The notes beneath the pieces are model-generated. The model was not told the origin of the DNA and made no database searches. It saw only the letters and a program-made list of their open reading frames with translations. From NCBI GenBank assembly GCA_900754775.1, contig CAAEDZ010000104.1:1-5465 (forward strand): a stretch of DNA of 5,465 bases, read 5' to 3'. The position numbers were made by a program, and so were the translations under genes. The DNA is from Clostridia bacterium. GTDB taxonomy: Bacteria > Bacillota_A > Clostridia > Christensenellales > Aristaeellaceae. Positions 73 through 5,465 of the stretch are shown in pieces; within the stretch, counting starts at the first letter, position 1; each line of letters starts with the position of its first letter.

Positions 73-1668
73 ATGGAACACTGTTTCCGCGCCCTTTTCA
101 CCACCTCTCTGGGCATCGCGCTGGTCCTGTTCCCGCTGTATCTCCTCTACCGCGCCTGCGAAAAGCGCCTCGCCCCAAAGTACGCGAACGATCTGTTCGG
201 CGCGGCGTATGCCGCCCTCTGGGTCGTCTGGTACGCAAAGTGCGTCTGGCCGGACGAGTTGGGCCTTCTCCCCTTCGGCCCCGCCTACGCCCCGGAGGCG
301 GCGCTGCGGGAAGCGCCCGCCGCGGGACCGGGCTGGCTGGAGGTGGCCGCGTGGGTCTGGCTGGCCGGCGTCGGAGCCTATCTGCTTTCGCGCATCGTCC
401 CCTACGTCTGCTTCCGCCTGCGCGTGCGCCGCGAGAGCCGCCCGGCGAGCGCGGAGACGCAGCGCGCCTTCGACCGCCTGCTCGGCGGCGTCGCCGTGGA
501 TACCACGGAGAACTGGCAGAAGTACGTGCGCGTGCTGCCGGGCCTGCCGGGGCCGATGAGCATCGTCCTCTGGCTCAAATGCCTGCTGCTCGACCGCGAG
601 AACTACGACGAGGAAACGCTGGACGCCATCTTCCGCCACGAACTGATGCACACCAGCAACAGGGAAGTCAGCATTGGCCGGCTCTCTACGCTGTTTTCGT
701 TGGCTGTGCAATGGCTGAACCCGGCGGCGTGGTGGATGCGCTCCGAACAGCGCCGCAATGAGGAACTCGCCTGCGACATGGCGGCGGCGGGCTGGCGCTC
801 CCTGGAACACCGCCGCGCCTACGCCCGCGCCATGGTGGGCCTCGCCTCCGGGCCGCGCCGCGAAGTGCCGGGCACGGCGGGCATGGCCTGCGGCGCGAAG
901 ACGCTGCGCCGCCGCGTGGCGGCCATCCTGCGCGGCGAGCCGGAACAGTACGGCGTAAAGCCGTGGCTCCTGCGCACGCTGCTGGGCCTCGTCACCCTGC
1001 TGGCCGTCGCCTGCGGCGCGCTGCTGCTGGGCGGGGCGGGGAGCTTCCGCATCGACGAGGGCAACTTCCTCTCCTGCCTGGGCATGGATCTGGGCGAGCT
1101 TTCCCCAACGGCGGTGCATGAAAGCGCCGTTACCTACGCGGGCAACGGCTTCTACCGCCTGCGCGTCGCCGGCAGCCCCTACGGCGCCGAGGCGGTGCTG
1201 AGCGACGGCATCGGCGGCCTCTATCTGCAATTCCCCGCCGACATGCCGGAAGAGGAGGTCGAAGCGTGCATCTCCCGCATGGAGGCCCAACTCACCGGCG
1301 CGCTGGGGGGACCGCTGGAAGAAGGCGCGCTGGAGGCCATGTGGGCGCGGCTGGAAACGCAGGCGCTCGAATGGTTGGATGATGTGAACATGGCCGAATG
1401 GAAGCTGGCGGTGCTGGACGACCAGCTGCGGCAGGCGTATGCGCGGCAGACGGGAAGCACCTATGGCGCGCCGTCCGTGCCCCCGCCGCTGCTGCTGTTG
1501 TTGGGCGCATCCGGCGAAGAACGCGGCACGTGGCGCGGCTCGACCGACGATGGCACGGCCACCATCACGCTGCGCGTCCTGCCGGGCGCGGTCTCGCGCG
1601 CCCCGGAGACGGAAGGCGGCACGCTGGTGGCCCTCGTGTGGGACGAATGGTGGCCGGAGGCGGCGTGA
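73..1668 (+). CDS. M56-family (BlaR1/MecR1-like) membrane zinc metallopeptidase, paralogue 1
   Basis: Likely a membrane-embedded signalling protease of 531 aa. Hydrophobic segments lie at about 5-28, 38-60 and 86-108. A basic cytoplasmic region follows, then a fourth segment at about 298-322 and a C-terminal domain (323-531) expected outside the cell. The zinc site is HELMH at 189-193 (zinc ligands H189 and H193, catalytic E190). The probable third ligand is E231 in ELACD, 38 residues downstream, as in BlaR1. The family segment WLNPAAWW precedes it, and MACG...TLRRRV (about 271-282) leads to the last membrane helix. In BlaR1 this domain is activated by the sensor and leads to loss of the BlaI repressor; the target here is unknown. 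The C-terminal domain shows no penicillin-binding S-x-x-K/KTG pattern that I can see. It carries WRGSTDDGTATITL at 487-500. Compared with its two sisters it has about 45 extra residues rich in Trp, Glu and Leu (about 415-478), ending in PPP followed by five Leu. The gene leads the three-gene run. Family call is strong, function is inference. Confidence 0.9.
   Translation: MEHCFRALFTTSLGIALVLFPLYLLYRACEKRLAPKYANDLFGAAYAALWVVWYAKCVWPDELGLLPFGPAYAPEAALREAPAAGPGWLEVAAWVWLAGVGAYLLSRIVPYVCFRLRVRRESRPASAETQRAFDRLLGGVAVDTTENWQKYVRVLPGLPGPMSIVLWLKCLLLDRENYDEETLDAIFRHELMHTSNREVSIGRLSTLFSLAVQWLNPAAWWMRSEQRRNEELACDMAAAGWRSLEHRRAYARAMVGLASGPRREVPGTAGMACGAKTLRRRVAAILRGEPEQYGVKPWLLRTLLGLVTLLAVACGALLLGGAGSFRIDEGNFLSCLGMDLGELSPTAVHESAVTYAGNGFYRLRVAGSPYGAEAVLSDGIGGLYLQFPADMPEEEVEACISRMEAQLTGALGGPLEEGALEAMWARLETQALEWLDDVNMAEWKLAVLDDQLRQAYARQTGSTYGAPSVPPPLLLLLGASGEERGTWRGSTDDGTATITLRVLPGAVSRAPETEGGTLVALVWDEWWPEAA
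532..611 (+). repeat. Near-identical 80-nt coding block shared by paralogues 1 and 2 (second copy 2180-2259)
   Basis: Positions 532-611 and 2180-2259 differ at only 3 of 80 bases by hand alignment, including silent positions. They encode VLPGLPGPMSIVLW-x-KCLLLDRE and the residues just after, which lead into the zinc motif. The third paralogue has the same region at about 3690-3769 but is clearly more diverged (PASVVVGPRAVLLDRE). This is paralogous coding sequence, not a mobile repeat. Confidence 0.75.
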
Positions 1669-1682
1669 GCGCCGCGCAGAAA

Positions 1683-1686
1683 GGAG
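1683..1686 (+). promoter_or_regulatory. Shine-Dalgarno site that sets the GTG start of paralogue 2
   Basis: GGAG within AGAAAGGAGA (1678-1687) lies 7 nt before GTG at 1694. The same frame is open back to an ATG at 1439 inside the first gene. The residues it would add are low-complexity Arg/Ala/Cys and lack a comparable site, so GTG 1694 is preferred. That start also places a membrane helix at the N-terminus, as in the sisters. Confidence 0.8.
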
Positions 1687-1693
1687 AAACGCC

Positions 1694-3154
1694 GTGAACA
1701 GCTTTCTCGCCCTCTCGCTGGGGCTGTGCCTGAGCCTCGGCCTGACGTGGCTCTTTGCCCGCAAGTGCGCGCGCTGGCTGGACGATAGCTGGTGGAGCCA
1801 GGAATTTGGCATCCAGGTCTGGGTGACGGTCATTTTGAGCGTACCTGGGGTCATCCTGCCCATGCGCGGCGGCTTTGCGAACTTTTCCCACGGCCTCGTC
1901 CCCGTCGGCCTGGCGCCCTCGCCGCGCCCGCGCCTGCGGGAACTGGCGGCGGCGTGGCGGCCGGGGCCGCTGGAGGTGTTCGGCTGGGTCTGGCTGGCGG
2001 GCATGGCCGCCGTGCTGCTGTGGCGGTTGGCGGGCATGTTGCTTTTGTGGCTGCGCGTGTGGCGCAAGAGCCGCCCGGTGAGCGCGCGCGTACAGCAGGC
2101 GCTGGAAAACGCCTGGCGCACGCTGGAGGGCGGCATCCTCGGGGGAAAGACGCTCGAAACGCACCTGCCTGACGTGCGCGTGCTGCCGGGGCTGCCGGGG
2201 CCGATGAGCATCGTCCTCTGGCCCAAATGCCTGCTGCTCGACCGCGAGGACTACGACGATGCGGCGCTGGACGCCATCCTCCGCCACGAGCTGGTGCATG
2301 CCTGCGGCCGAAACGTCGCCTCCCACCGCTTTTCCTGGCTGCTGCTGGGTGCGATCTTCTGGTTCGTGCCCACGGTGTGGCTGTTCACGCGCGAGGCGCG
2401 CCGGCGCGAGGAATACACCTGCGACCGCGACGCCAACGCCTTCAGCAACAAAGAGGAACTGCGCGCCTACGCTCGCGCCATCACAGCGCTGGCCGCGCCC
2501 CGGCGGCGCGAGGCGTTCGGCACGGCGAACATGGCCTGCGGCGAGGCGACGCTGCGCCGCCGCGTGGAGGCGCTCTTCCGCGAAGAAGCGCTGTCGCCGT
2601 GGGGGCGGCGGACGTTGCGCGCGCTGCTGGCGTTCGTCCTTATTCTGCTGCTCACGCTTCTGCCGTTCTTCCTCTTTTCCGGCCCGGCGCGCTTCGACGT
2701 CAACGAGGGGAACATCCTCAATTTCGTCGGCTGGGACGTGTTCGACCTTTCCAACGGCATGGACCCGGACAGCCTGCCCGCCGTGGAGGGGGAGGGCGTT
2801 CTGCTCTACCGCATGGAGACAAGGACGCTGCCCTACGGCGCGGCGGCGCTCTACAACGAGATGGGCGATCTCTACCTTTCCTTTCCCGACGACCCCGCCG
2901 CCGCGGACGAAGCCTGCGCCCGGCTGACAAAGCGCCTTACCGCCCTGCTCGGCGAGCCGGCGGCTCGCAGGGACATCTCCGTCATCCACGCAAGAGATGT
3001 TGACCTGCGCGCCATGCTGGAGCTGCCCCCGGACGCCCCCGCCCCGCGTCGGGAAACCCTGGCCACCTGGCGCGGCACGATCGATACGGGCACGGCCACC
3101 ATCACCCTCGCCCGCATAGAGGGCGAAACCGGCGCGGTGGTCGCGCTTCTGTGA
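1694..3154 (+). CDS. M56-family (BlaR1/MecR1-like) membrane zinc metallopeptidase, paralogue 2 (short C-terminus)
   Basis: This 486-aa protein starts at GTG, 25 nt after the first gene, and is probably co-transcribed with it. Membrane segments lie at about 3-22, 40-57, 92-118 and 309-328. The zinc-protease domain between the third and fourth has HELVH at 198-202. The probable third ligand is E240 in EYTCD, 38 residues on, the same spacing as in paralogue 1. GTANMACGEATLRRRV (about 276-291) precedes the last helix. The presumed external domain (331-486) begins DVNEGNILNFVGWDVF. It contains LPYGAAALYNEMGDLYLSF and then WRGTIDTGTATITL at 459-472. The protein ends abruptly at ...GAVVALL. The stop TGA (3152-3154) sits where paralogues 1 and 3 have a TGG Trp codon, so the tail may have been lost by a point change. 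Expected role: envelope sensing and regulated proteolysis, by analogy with BlaR1; ligand and substrate unknown. Confidence 0.88.
   Translation: MNSFLALSLGLCLSLGLTWLFARKCARWLDDSWWSQEFGIQVWVTVILSVPGVILPMRGGFANFSHGLVPVGLAPSPRPRLRELAAAWRPGPLEVFGWVWLAGMAAVLLWRLAGMLLLWLRVWRKSRPVSARVQQALENAWRTLEGGILGGKTLETHLPDVRVLPGLPGPMSIVLWPKCLLLDREDYDDAALDAILRHELVHACGRNVASHRFSWLLLGAIFWFVPTVWLFTREARRREEYTCDRDANAFSNKEELRAYARAITALAAPRRREAFGTANMACGEATLRRRVEALFREEALSPWGRRTLRALLAFVLILLLTLLPFFLFSGPARFDVNEGNILNFVGWDVFDLSNGMDPDSLPAVEGEGVLLYRMETRTLPYGAAALYNEMGDLYLSFPDDPAAADEACARLTKRLTALLGEPAARRDISVIHARDVDLRAMLELPPDAPAPRRETLATWRGTIDTGTATITLARIEGETGAVVALL
2549..2587 (+). repeat. 39-nt coding block shared by paralogues 2 and 3 (second copy 4055-4093)
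   Basis: Positions 2549-2587 and 4055-4093 differ at a single base and encode TLRRRVEALFREE, just before the fourth membrane helix. The corresponding part of paralogue 1 (from 901) matches only over its first half. Paralogues 2 and 3 also share a nearly identical stretch encoding REEYTCDR (about 2405-2428 and 3911-3934). Confidence 0.7.
2891..2919 (+). repeat. 29-nt identical block in the sensor domains of paralogues 2 and 3 (second copy 4394-4422)
   Basis: Positions 2891-2919 and 4394-4422 are identical and encode DPAAADEACA in the presumed external domain. A second identical stretch of 23 nt is at 3131-3153 and 4631-4653, encoding GAVVALL. It runs right up to the base that makes the stop codon in paralogue 2. 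Flanking sensor sequence is much less alike, so identity is patchy. Confidence 0.75.
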
Positions 3155-3176
3155 GCGCGGGAAGGGCGCTCTTCCC
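3153..3176 (+). promoter_or_regulatory. Two competing short hairpins between paralogues 2 and 3
   Basis: GAGCGC (3153-3158) can pair with GCGCTC (3166-3171) around a 7-nt loop. GGGAAG (3159-3164) can pair with CTTCCC (3171-3176). The two stems share bases and cannot both form fully. They overlap the stop codon of paralogue 2 and end 11 nt before the ribosome binding site of paralogue 3. They could tune translation or mRNA processing of the third gene, but short stems arise easily in GC-rich DNA. There is no T-tract, so this is not an intrinsic terminator. Confidence 0.3.
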
Positions 3177-3187
3177 ATCAACGCACA

Positions 3188-3193
3188 GGGAGG
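3188..3193 (+). promoter_or_regulatory. Shine-Dalgarno site for paralogue 3
   Basis: GGGAGG lies 6 nt before the ATG at 3200. No other start codon exists in that frame between the stop of paralogue 2 and this ATG. Confidence 0.8.
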
Positions 3194-3199
3194 TATCCC

Positions 3200-4753
3200 A
3201 TGAACACCTTCTTTTCGGCTTCCCTCGGCGTGAGCGTGTGCGCCTTGGCGCTGCTGCTCGTCTATCGCCTCTGCGAGCGGCGGCTCGATTCCAGCCAGTG
3301 GAGCCTGCTCTTTTTTACGCTTGGCTCGTCCCTCCTGTGCCTGCTCGGCCAGGTGTTCGCTCCCGTGCTGCTCGGCTCGACGCGCGGGGCGTGGGGGCTG
3401 CTCCCCGCCGGCTTTTCGCCCAGCCTCCGCTCGCCGCTGCGGGAAGTGGCGGCGGCGTGGCGGCCCGGGCCGCTGGAGATCATGACCTGGGTGTGGCTGG
3501 CGGGTCTCGTCCTTTGCCTTTTGTGGAACATCGCCGCCATCGTGCGCGTGCAGCGGCGCGTGCGGCGCGAGAGCCGTCCGGCGGGCGAGGCGATCCAGAA
3601 GGCGCTGGTGCGCGTGAGCCGCGCCATGGACAGGGATATACTCAACGAATACGCCTCCGCCGGGGCGCTGCCCAATGAGGTGCGCGTCATGCCGGGCCTG
3701 CCGGGGCCGGCCAGCGTGGTCGTCGGCCCGCGCGCGGTGCTGCTCGACCGCGAGGACTACGACGAGGAAACGCTCGACGCCATCTTCCGCCACGAACTGG
3801 TGCATATCCACGGCAATTCCGTTTCCGGCACGCGCGCGATCTGGACGGCGTTCACCTGCATTTTCTGGTTTTCGCCGCCGGTGTGGCTGTTGCGCCGCGA
3901 GGCGCGCGTGCGCGAGGAATACACCTGCGACCGCGAGGCCAACCTTGGCCGCACGCCGGAGGAACGCCGTGCCTACGCCCACGCCATGGCGGACCTTGCC
4001 GCCGGGGTCAGGCGCGAATGGCCCGGCACGGCGGGCATGGCCTGCGGCGCTTCCACGCTGCGCCGCCGCGTGGAGGCGCTCTTTCGCGAAGAAAAGCCCG
4101 CGTCCCGCTGGCGAAAGCGGCTGTTCGGGGCGCTGCGCTTTCTCCTCTACGTCTCGGCGGTGCTTTTCTCCCTCTCGCTCTTCGGCGGCCCGGCGCGCTA
4201 TACGCTGACGGAGGAGAATATCCTTCATTACGTCGGCCAGTTCCGGCCGTATCAGGGCATGCACGAGTCCGCTCTCACGCGCGTGGACGGAGTGGAAGAC
4301 GCGCTGCTCTACCGCATGGAGACGCGCAGCGCCCCCTACGGCGCGACGGCGGTCTATTACGAGGATATATACGACATCTACCTCGCCTTTTCCGACCCCG
4401 CCGCCGCGGACGAAGCCTGCGCGGGCCTCTCCCAGCGCCTCACCGCCCTGCTCGGAGAGGGCGAGGCGGCGGACGGCGACCGGCTCTATCTCACGGACGA
4501 CACGCTCTTTCGCATGCTGGAACAGCCCCCGGCGGGCGGCGCGTTCGAGCGCCGCGTCCTCGGCACCTGGCGCGGTACGACCGACGATGGCGCGGCCACC
4601 ATAACCCTCGCCCGCGCGGACGCCGAGAACGGCGCGGTGGTCGCGCTTCTGTGGGGAGAGGAGATCGAGACGCAGCCGCTCCCCTTCGACATCGACGTTT
4701 TCATCATAAGTACGATGCTGCAGAACGACAGCGCCCCTTCCGGCACAGAATGA
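3200..4753 (+). CDS. M56-family (BlaR1/MecR1-like) membrane zinc metallopeptidase, paralogue 3
   Basis: This 517-aa protein is the last gene of the run, 45 nt after paralogue 2 and followed by the terminator hairpin. Membrane segments lie at about 4-22, 34-58, 91-115 and 308-328. HELVH at 198-202 and the probable third zinc ligand E240 in EYTCD fall at the same residue numbers as in paralogue 2. The protease halves are therefore equal in length up to that point, and TLRRRV (from 286) also coincides. The presumed external domain (331-517) starts TLTEENILHYVGQF. It has APYGATAVYYEDIYDIYLAF, then DPAAADEACA, then WRGTTDDGAATITL at 457-470. Unlike paralogue 2 it continues past VVALL with W485 and a 32-residue acidic tail containing FDIDVFIISTML. 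By analogy with BlaR1 it should relay an external signal by intramembrane-anchored proteolysis; neither ligand nor target can be read from the sequence. Its domain order is intact and no frameshift is seen. Confidence 0.9.
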   Translation: MNTFFSASLGVSVCALALLLVYRLCERRLDSSQWSLLFFTLGSSLLCLLGQVFAPVLLGSTRGAWGLLPAGFSPSLRSPLREVAAAWRPGPLEIMTWVWLAGLVLCLLWNIAAIVRVQRRVRRESRPAGEAIQKALVRVSRAMDRDILNEYASAGALPNEVRVMPGLPGPASVVVGPRAVLLDREDYDEETLDAIFRHELVHIHGNSVSGTRAIWTAFTCIFWFSPPVWLLRREARVREEYTCDREANLGRTPEERRAYAHAMADLAAGVRREWPGTAGMACGASTLRRRVEALFREEKPASRWRKRLFGALRFLLYVSAVLFSLSLFGGPARYTLTEENILHYVGQFRPYQGMHESALTRVDGVEDALLYRMETRSAPYGATAVYYEDIYDIYLAFSDPAAADEACAGLSQRLTALLGEGEAADGDRLYLTDDTLFRMLEQPPAGGAFERRVLGTWRGTTDDGAATITLARADAENGAVVALLWGEEIETQPLPFDIDVFIISTMLQNDSAPSGTE

Positions 4754-4783: not shown

Positions 4784-4847
4784 AAGCCCATGAACGCGAA
4801 AACCGCCACCGATTCTTCCTCGGGGCGGTTTTCGCGTTCATGGGCTT
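4784..4847. terminator. Bidirectional intrinsic terminator with a 24-bp perfect stem
   Basis: The arms 4784-4807 and 4824-4847 are perfectly complementary over 24 bp. The stem can continue, after one bulged A (4808), with CCGA (4809-4812) against TCGG (4820-4823), leaving a 7-nt loop. The inner GC-rich part is flanked by AAAA (4799-4802) on the left and TTTT (4829-4832) on the right. It can therefore act as a terminator on either strand. It begins 30 nt after the third M56 gene and ends 34 nt before the stop of the convergent phosphoesterase gene, which is the expected place for a shared terminator. Confidence 0.85.
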
Positions 4848-4881: not shown

Positions 4882-5465
4882 TCACTTTGTGAACCGCACC
4901 AGATGCACCTGCGGCGGCGCGCCCACGCGCAGCGTCACCCGGCTCATGCCGATGCCATTGGAGACGATGGTCCTCACCCCGCCCAGCGTGCATTCGCCGC
5001 TCACCCAGGCGTGGCGGCGCGGCTCGAAGAAGAACGTGTAGGGCGTTAAGCCCAGCACATTGAATTGCCCGCCGTGCGTGTGGCCGGAAAGCTGCAGGTC
5101 GGGCCGCGCGCCCACGCCAAAATCGCAGGCGACGGGGTAGTGGGAAAGCAGCACCCGCGCGCTCGCCCCGTCGTGGGGGAAGATGGCCTCCGCGCGGGGA
5201 TGGCCGTGCTTGCGCTCGTCCACGCCGCCCAGCCGCAGCCCCTCCAGAAATACGCTCTCGTTGACGAGCAAGTGCGCGTGGCCCGCCAGCATTTGCGCAA
5301 AGCCGGGAAGCTCGCGGTCGTTGTTGCCCAGACAGGCGTACACCCCCAGCGGGGGCGAAAGCAGCGGAAAAAAGCGCAGCAGCCGCGCAAGGCTCTCTTC
5401 GTCCTCGGCAAAGTCGCCGCCGATGCAGACGACGTCCGCCTTCAGCGCTGCCACGCGCGCAAGAA
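4882..5465 (-). CDS. Metallophosphoesterase, YkuE-like calcineurin fold (N-terminus beyond the window)
   Basis: This reverse-strand gene ends at 4882 and runs off the right edge. The first in-frame start codon inside the window (GTG at 5452-5454) is not the real start. The frame continues as L-A-R before it, and the residues after it (AALKADVVCIGGDF) are the family's second block, so the D-x-H block and start lie outside. Visible motifs are GGDF (its metal-ligand Asp codon at 5413-5415), GNND at 5317-5328, SHYP (His codon 5140-5142) and GHTHGGQ at 5065-5085. The C-terminus, NGIGMSRVTLRVGAPPQVHLV, is typical of YkuE-like proteins (COG1408 type). Such enzymes use two metal ions to hydrolyse phosphate esters, often at the membrane or cell surface; the substrate here is unknown. 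One oddity is GNND in place of the usual GNH(D/E), which removes the usual catalytic His. The gene converges on the M56 run, shares its terminator, and need not be functionally linked to it. Confidence 0.9.
   Translation of the reverse strand, partial: LARVAALKADVVCIGGDFAEDEESLARLLRFFPLLSPPLGVYACLGNNDRELPGFAQMLAGHAHLLVNESVFLEGLRLGGVDERKHGHPRAEAIFPHDGASARVLLSHYPVACDFGVGARPDLQLSGHTHGGQFNVLGLTPYTFFFEPRRHAWVSGECTLGGVRTIVSNGIGMSRVTLRVGAPPQVHLVRFTK

Follow-up and report, generated by a model that had tools for sequence, protein, structure and literature searches.

The stretch of DNA analyzed here, hereafter the window, comprises 5,465 nucleotides of contig CAAEDZ010000104.1 from a Clostridia bacterium and carries three consecutive genes for BlaR1-type membrane receptors with a zinc protease of family M56. 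All three genes are intact open reading frames (ORFs) on the plus strand, separated by 25 and 45 nt, and an AGGAG- or GGAGG-like stretch lies upstream of every start. The genes and the conserved block that they share are located as follows.

73–1668, plus strand: M56 receptor-protease 1 (type B), 531 amino acids (aa), ATG start, sensor part at about 1039–1665.
1694–3154, plus strand: M56 receptor-protease 2 (type C2), 486 aa, GTG start, sensor part at about 2687–3151.
3200–4753, plus strand: M56 receptor-protease 3 (type C3), 517 aa, ATG start, sensor part at about 4193–4750.
524–657, plus strand: conserved protease-core block (direct repeat family D1), detected again by the direct-repeat search at 2172–2305 (90%) and 3678–3811 (80%).

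The first-pass annotation had described three full-length M56 genes in tandem with these two gaps, an intact zinc site in each and sensing halves of unequal length, and the ORF coordinates and profile scores bear this out. The scores with PF05569 were 71.3, 73.4 and 80.1 bits for genes 1, 2 and 3 (cut-off 31 bits), the match covering profile positions from about 100 onward only. HExxH starts at residues 189, 198 and 198, E-x-x-C-D is located 42 residues past this start, equal to 38 residues after the second histidine, and the regions past the last membrane helix comprise about 209, 155 and 186 aa. HExxH, ExxCD and LRRRV are kept in all three genes, with HELMH at aa 189, ELACD at aa 231 and LRRRV at aa 278 in gene 1, and HELVH, EYTCD and LRRRV in gene 2. 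Pairwise comparison revealed 195/467, 203/473 and 249/481 identical residues (42%, 43% and 52%), and judged by these alignments the genes are old paralogues; exact DNA runs common to them reach 31 nt. Reading by eye showed no stop codon within positions 1–72 in any frame. The window therefore does not reveal the start of the array, three genes are a minimum, and the array may extend leftward beyond the window.

Membership in PF05569 is indicated by the profile score, by the gluzincin zinc site HExxH + ExxxD, which is present in nine genes (three of the window and six of the related locus L001 described below), and by a BlaR1-like membrane-protease fold. The predicted structure of window gene 3 matches BlaR1 from S. 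aureus across the membrane and protease part. According to excerpts of PMC9834060, the active site of BlaR1 spans a domain-swapped dimer, in which the partner chain supplies R294 to complete it; R294 is bridged to D246 and follows a self-cleaved loop. Among 47 aligned relatives the aspartate equivalent to D246 never varies, and the arginines vary little or not at all.

The three window sensors contain no SxxK acylation motif; L001 has one, in gene 4 at aa 342. Using the NCBIfam model blaR1_generic, the window proteins scored 28.4, 39.3 and 39.7 bits against an equivalog cut-off of 400. Since SxxK is absent and the scores are far below this cut-off, the window proteins are, by these two sequence tests, members of family M56 and not beta-lactam receptors. 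A structure comparison with the sensor model of window gene 3 gave no match at E 0.001, and among the matches listed the class-D beta-lactamases reached E 0.27 or worse over 67–97 columns.

A genome scan with window gene 3 led to one locus, L001, in Candidatus Pullichristensenella stercorigallinarum (a Clostridia genus; genome G001). L001 contains six M56 genes in a row headed by a BlaI gene at 2181–2546 (PF03965, 99.5 bits), whose product matches the structures of MecI and BlaI and which overlaps the first receptor gene by four bases. Beyond the array lie a BRO-N gene and then the convergent metallophosphoesterase gene that also flanks the array in the window. Window gene 3 was matched at E ≤1e-15 in three of 150 genomes related to G007, namely G001, G007 and G002, and a nine-row alignment searched against 396 genomes of the order, with at most three candidates scored per genome, exceeded 100 bits in G001 only. 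Genome G007 carries an orthologous BlaI gene (PF03965, 94 bits) together with a receptor start at one contig end, and on a second contig two receptor genes with the metallophosphoesterase behind them. At one of its contig ends, G002 has the end of a last receptor gene with the same flank next to it, and the genome search found no BlaI in G002. Pieces of the array recur among relatives, and the whole locus is visible in L001 only.

Over 375 aa, window gene 2 shares 95% of its residues with a gene truncated by the end of G007 contig C79. At the DNA level the identity of window and G007 is 0.89–0.99 at 1998–3047 of gene 2, 0.78 across the gene 2 end and the gap, 0.53–0.75 across gene 3 and 0.87–0.92 in the flank.

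An upstream BlaI-like gene had been suggested as a check, and relatives supplied it: the L001 array begins with a BlaI gene, and G007 has the same BlaI and promoter. In both, the promoter consists of TTGACA, a spacer of 17 nt and TATTCT immediately upstream of the BlaI start, and a pair of adjoining dyads spans the -10 box and the sequence after it; the first dyad is oriented oppositely in G007 relative to L001. The first 14-mer in exact form is present once in G001 and once in G007, and the degenerate form was found without mismatch at the array promoter alone. Weaker matches elsewhere were at chance level in G001 and amounted to one in G007. These predicted sites in two relatives suggest that BlaI represses the array through the dyads over the -10 box. 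Further BlaI genes are present, one in a separate BlaI-M56 pair on G007 contig C122 and one beside an M56 fragment on G001 contig C48. Apart from BlaI and the receptors no gene was seen in the L001 operon (2181–11473), hence no effector gene, and the operon contains no beta-lactamase or mecA-like gene. Because it appears to hold only the repressor and the receptors, self-induction is the sole target that can be named.

Tandem M56 genes in themselves are not unique, since pairs occur elsewhere in Clostridia. An M56 match at E 1e-5 was obtained in 59 of 89 genomes of the class, and a tandem pair within about 4 kb in two of the 89 (G530 and G541; all listed places were read by eye). Among 60 relatives, pairs were also found in G039 and G031, besides G007. 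Three or more tandem genes were present among the 89 class genomes only in G001, the search centre; contig breaks may conceal further arrays. On contig C123 of G039 (L042:1-4767) a BlaI gene is followed by two long M56 ORFs sharing their first 60 residues, either a recent tandem duplication or an assembly artefact. In a literature search covering open-licence papers, none of the listings returned described multi-receptor BlaI arrays.

Protein searches with the three window genes gave 53, 80 and 116 hits, with about 8,000 candidates sharing most words scored in each. A tree was calculated from 62 rows, consisting of the 53 hits of the first search minus three weak or fused ones, plus the genes of the window, L001 and G007. 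Support was obtained for a group A, in which L001 genes 1–3 join the first G007 gene, and for a group C, which unites window genes 2 and 3 with L001 gene 6 and the last two G007 genes. Type B, with window gene 1 and L001 genes 4 and 5, falls between these groups in an uncertain placement; the L001 gene closest to window gene 1 is the fifth, with 49% identity. The tree is weakened by mosaic rows and by the long branch of L001 gene 4. Window gene 1 and window genes 2 and 3, and likewise the G007 genes, fall into separate lineages common to L001, which suggests that the duplications are older than the split of these species. Equal lengths of the longest contig (295,606 for P0050 and P0013; 20,140 for P0116 and P0029) suggest, as far as matching lengths of unseen contigs can, that group A and other types sit on shared contigs. 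One further sequence, P0038, whose longest contig has the same length as that of P0047 (34,612), encodes a product of 769 aa, far longer than its relatives, with an M56 part matching group A; it is a possible fusion of array genes.

The genes also appear to be mosaics of one another. Segment typing of 157 sequences (167 minus ten weak or fused ones) against 13 references flagged sequences that switch type along their length. A two-parent test was applied to 23 of the 157, 13 likely mosaics and ten controls. Describing a sequence by two parents instead of one gained 35–115 matched residues in 12 of the 13 likely mosaics (P0010 gained 10) and 0–12 residues in nine of the ten controls; the remaining control, P0011, gained 31 because of a shared C-terminal tail. 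Since the likely mosaics were picked from the same data, this test describes them and does not prove them. The pairings were B>C2, C3>C2, C1>C2, C2>C1, C3>C1, C2>C4, C1>B and A>F. The change of parent takes place close to where the third membrane helix begins, in the core from PGLPGP to HELVH, in the stretch from the zinc site to the loop or in the LRRRV segment that precedes the last helix; some breakpoints map to the protein segment matching repeat family D1. Mosaic genes are well supported as a class, and single cases may be errors. In the C1/C2 mosaic P0006, residues of about 206–250 are identical to the type of L001 gene 6 of another species, reflecting either cross-species exchange or an assembly error.

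The shared tail is located at the end of the array.

4655–4753, plus strand: C-terminal tail of 32 residues in the last gene, with the stop codon, common to four different gene bodies among relatives.

Fourteen of the 157 sequences carry it: C1 bodies in clusters of 151, 16 and 8 members, a C2 sensor in a cluster of 4, C3 in clusters of 60 and 20 and in the window, and C4 in clusters of 34 and 18 and in five with a single member. The other C1 proteins and the shorter P0029 (C3) and P0027 (C4) do not carry it. The G002 contig has a C1-like end bearing the tail next to the same flank. A comparison of C3 with C4 (window gene 3 with P0028) showed 80–100% identity in some stretches and 36–60% in others. 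The tail, this comparison and the identity profile of the window against G007 given above are less prone to artefact than the two-parent test.

Two further features follow the last receptor gene.

4785–4846, no strand assigned: strong hairpin between convergent genes, a possible bidirectional terminator (-52.3 kcal/mol, z -10.4).
4882–5463, minus strand: YaeI-like metallophosphoesterase, cut by the window end (PF00149, 26.6 bits, cut-off 21.5), the right flank outside the system.

The stability of the hairpin was equalled by none of 200 shuffles. The single shared terminator proposed earlier is matched by this very stable structure, but the hairpin was not among the results of a consensus terminator scan of the window, so that "terminator" is a reading of the hairpin. 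A scan of the window for sigma-70-type promoters gave none (mean of 0.2 in shuffles), hence none between the genes. DNA resembling the metallophosphoesterase flank adjoins the array in L040 (90%) and L088 (88%), and in L001 the flank (78%) is found past the gene with the BRO-N domain (PF02498; L001:11816-12706), which lies between the last receptor and the flank. The short gaps of the window and of L040 showed no BRO-N gene. Genes with this domain are usual in phages.

Taken together, we read the window, with a probability of about 0.6, as the 3' end of a BlaI-headed tandem M56 array that works as a many-input OR gate with positive feedback and whose genes recombine. Judging by the nearest loci, the source bacterium is probably a relative of the genus Ca. 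Pullichristensenella. The arrangement in the window, and BlaI, the promoter dyads and the flank in relatives, are read from the DNA itself; what we infer is the cleavage of BlaI in OR-gate fashion, the ligands, dimers of unlike receptors and adaptive shuffling. BlaI would repress the array via the dyads over the -10 box, and every receptor would combine a BlaR1-type membrane and zinc-protease module with its own small outside sensor devoid of the beta-lactam acylation motif. Binding of a ligand to any single sensor would activate the protease of that receptor, which would cut the one shared BlaI and so induce the whole array. Recombination at conserved stretches would reassort sensors among protease parts, and the last gene would be swapped between lineages, as the mosaics suggest. 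The first-pass annotation had proposed several inputs feeding one proteolytic output or, alternatively, hetero-oligomeric sensors. With BlaI at the head of the array in L001 and the same BlaI in G007, the former is the best reading, although cleavage of BlaI by each receptor is a presumed step. Hetero-oligomers are possible, given the active site shared within the BlaR1 dimer and the conservation of the matching residues.

It is possible, with the odds against it, that the array serves as a diversity-generating receptor repertoire behind one repressor switch, in which the extracellular sensors are interchangeable, homologous recombination at conserved protease blocks continually joins sensors to other signalling parts and the last receptor is exchanged between lineages; co-expressed paralogues may form mixed dimers and widen the repertoire. 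Shuffling of hsdS genes, which alters restriction specificity, provides an analogy for such reassortment. Shuffling loci of the hsdS kind carry a site-specific recombinase gene and inverted repeats; the present analysis covered direct repeats in the window and ten L001 ORFs scanned with Pfam.

Neutral tandem duplication, by which redundant BlaR1-like genes expand, contract and recombine without selection for sensor diversity, we regard as unlikely. Tandem repeats recombine by default, and the pairs in G039, G031, G530 and G541 fit such a process; however, divergent paralogue lineages are each present in more than one species of the tree, the zinc-site motifs are intact in all nine genes of the window and L001, and dN/dS between window gene 2 and its G007 counterpart is 0.22 (protease 0.20, sensor 0.19), which indicates purifying selection on protease and sensor alike. 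It is doubtful that the receptors are obligate hetero-oligomers which share active sites via a swapped helix, so that the combination sets the response. The partner-supplied R294 of S. aureus BlaR1 in the excerpts of PMC9834060, the matching aspartate and RRR residues, the surrounding segment, which is among the most similar between paralogues, and the co-transcription made likely by small gaps and overlaps would all agree with this idea, but homodimers predict the conserved interface equally well, and an obligate fixed complex would hardly tolerate that the gene type at the array end varies among the window, G007, G002 and L001. That the mosaics are mainly metagenome assembly errors from the repeated protease core is improbable: the tested mosaics have 1–5 member sequences each and, P0012 excepted, longest contigs of 1.5–11.8 kb, the 31-nt runs could confuse small k-mers and P0006 includes a stretch identical to another species' gene, but the tail-bearing clusters of C1, C3 and C4 are large, P0012 is present in 5 contigs (longest 317 kb) and its first part differs by 18% from the closest parent, a C1-like end with the tail was also seen in a contig of genome G002, and the last genes of the window and G007 diverge more than what lies on either side of them.

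If the OR-gate reading is true, up to six receptors per BlaI, with sensors that recombine and lack the beta-lactam motif, would present proteolytic one-component signalling as a many-input, evolvable system. Textbook BlaI-BlaR1 signalling uses one repressor and one receptor. Like BlaI-BlaR1 and MecI-MecR1 of S. aureus and B. licheniformis, the array has M56 gluzincins with HExxH + ExxxD, the predicted BlaR1 membrane-protease fold, equivalents of D246 and R294 and, in relatives, a repressor of the BlaI family whose own promoter holds dyads. It differs from them in the number of receptors per repressor (at least three in the window and six in L001, not one), in sensors of about 105–209 aa, those of the window without SxxK, in an L001 operon free of beta-lactamase or mecA-like genes, and in genes that are apparent mosaics of one another. 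The array offers natural sensor swaps for asking how the outside domain switches the inside protease, for BlaR1 an outstanding question according to the excerpts of PMC9834060. The same source describes an M. tuberculosis BlaR1 homologue which, compared by description only, likewise has an M56 protease domain and nothing equivalent to the beta-lactam sensor, and as far as these excerpts tell it is not part of an array. The tandem pair on G039 contig C123, also from Clostridia, resembles the array in that more than one M56 gene follows a single BlaI, and differs in having two genes with products of 719 aa and more than 850 aa and a PF05569 match over nearly the full profile.
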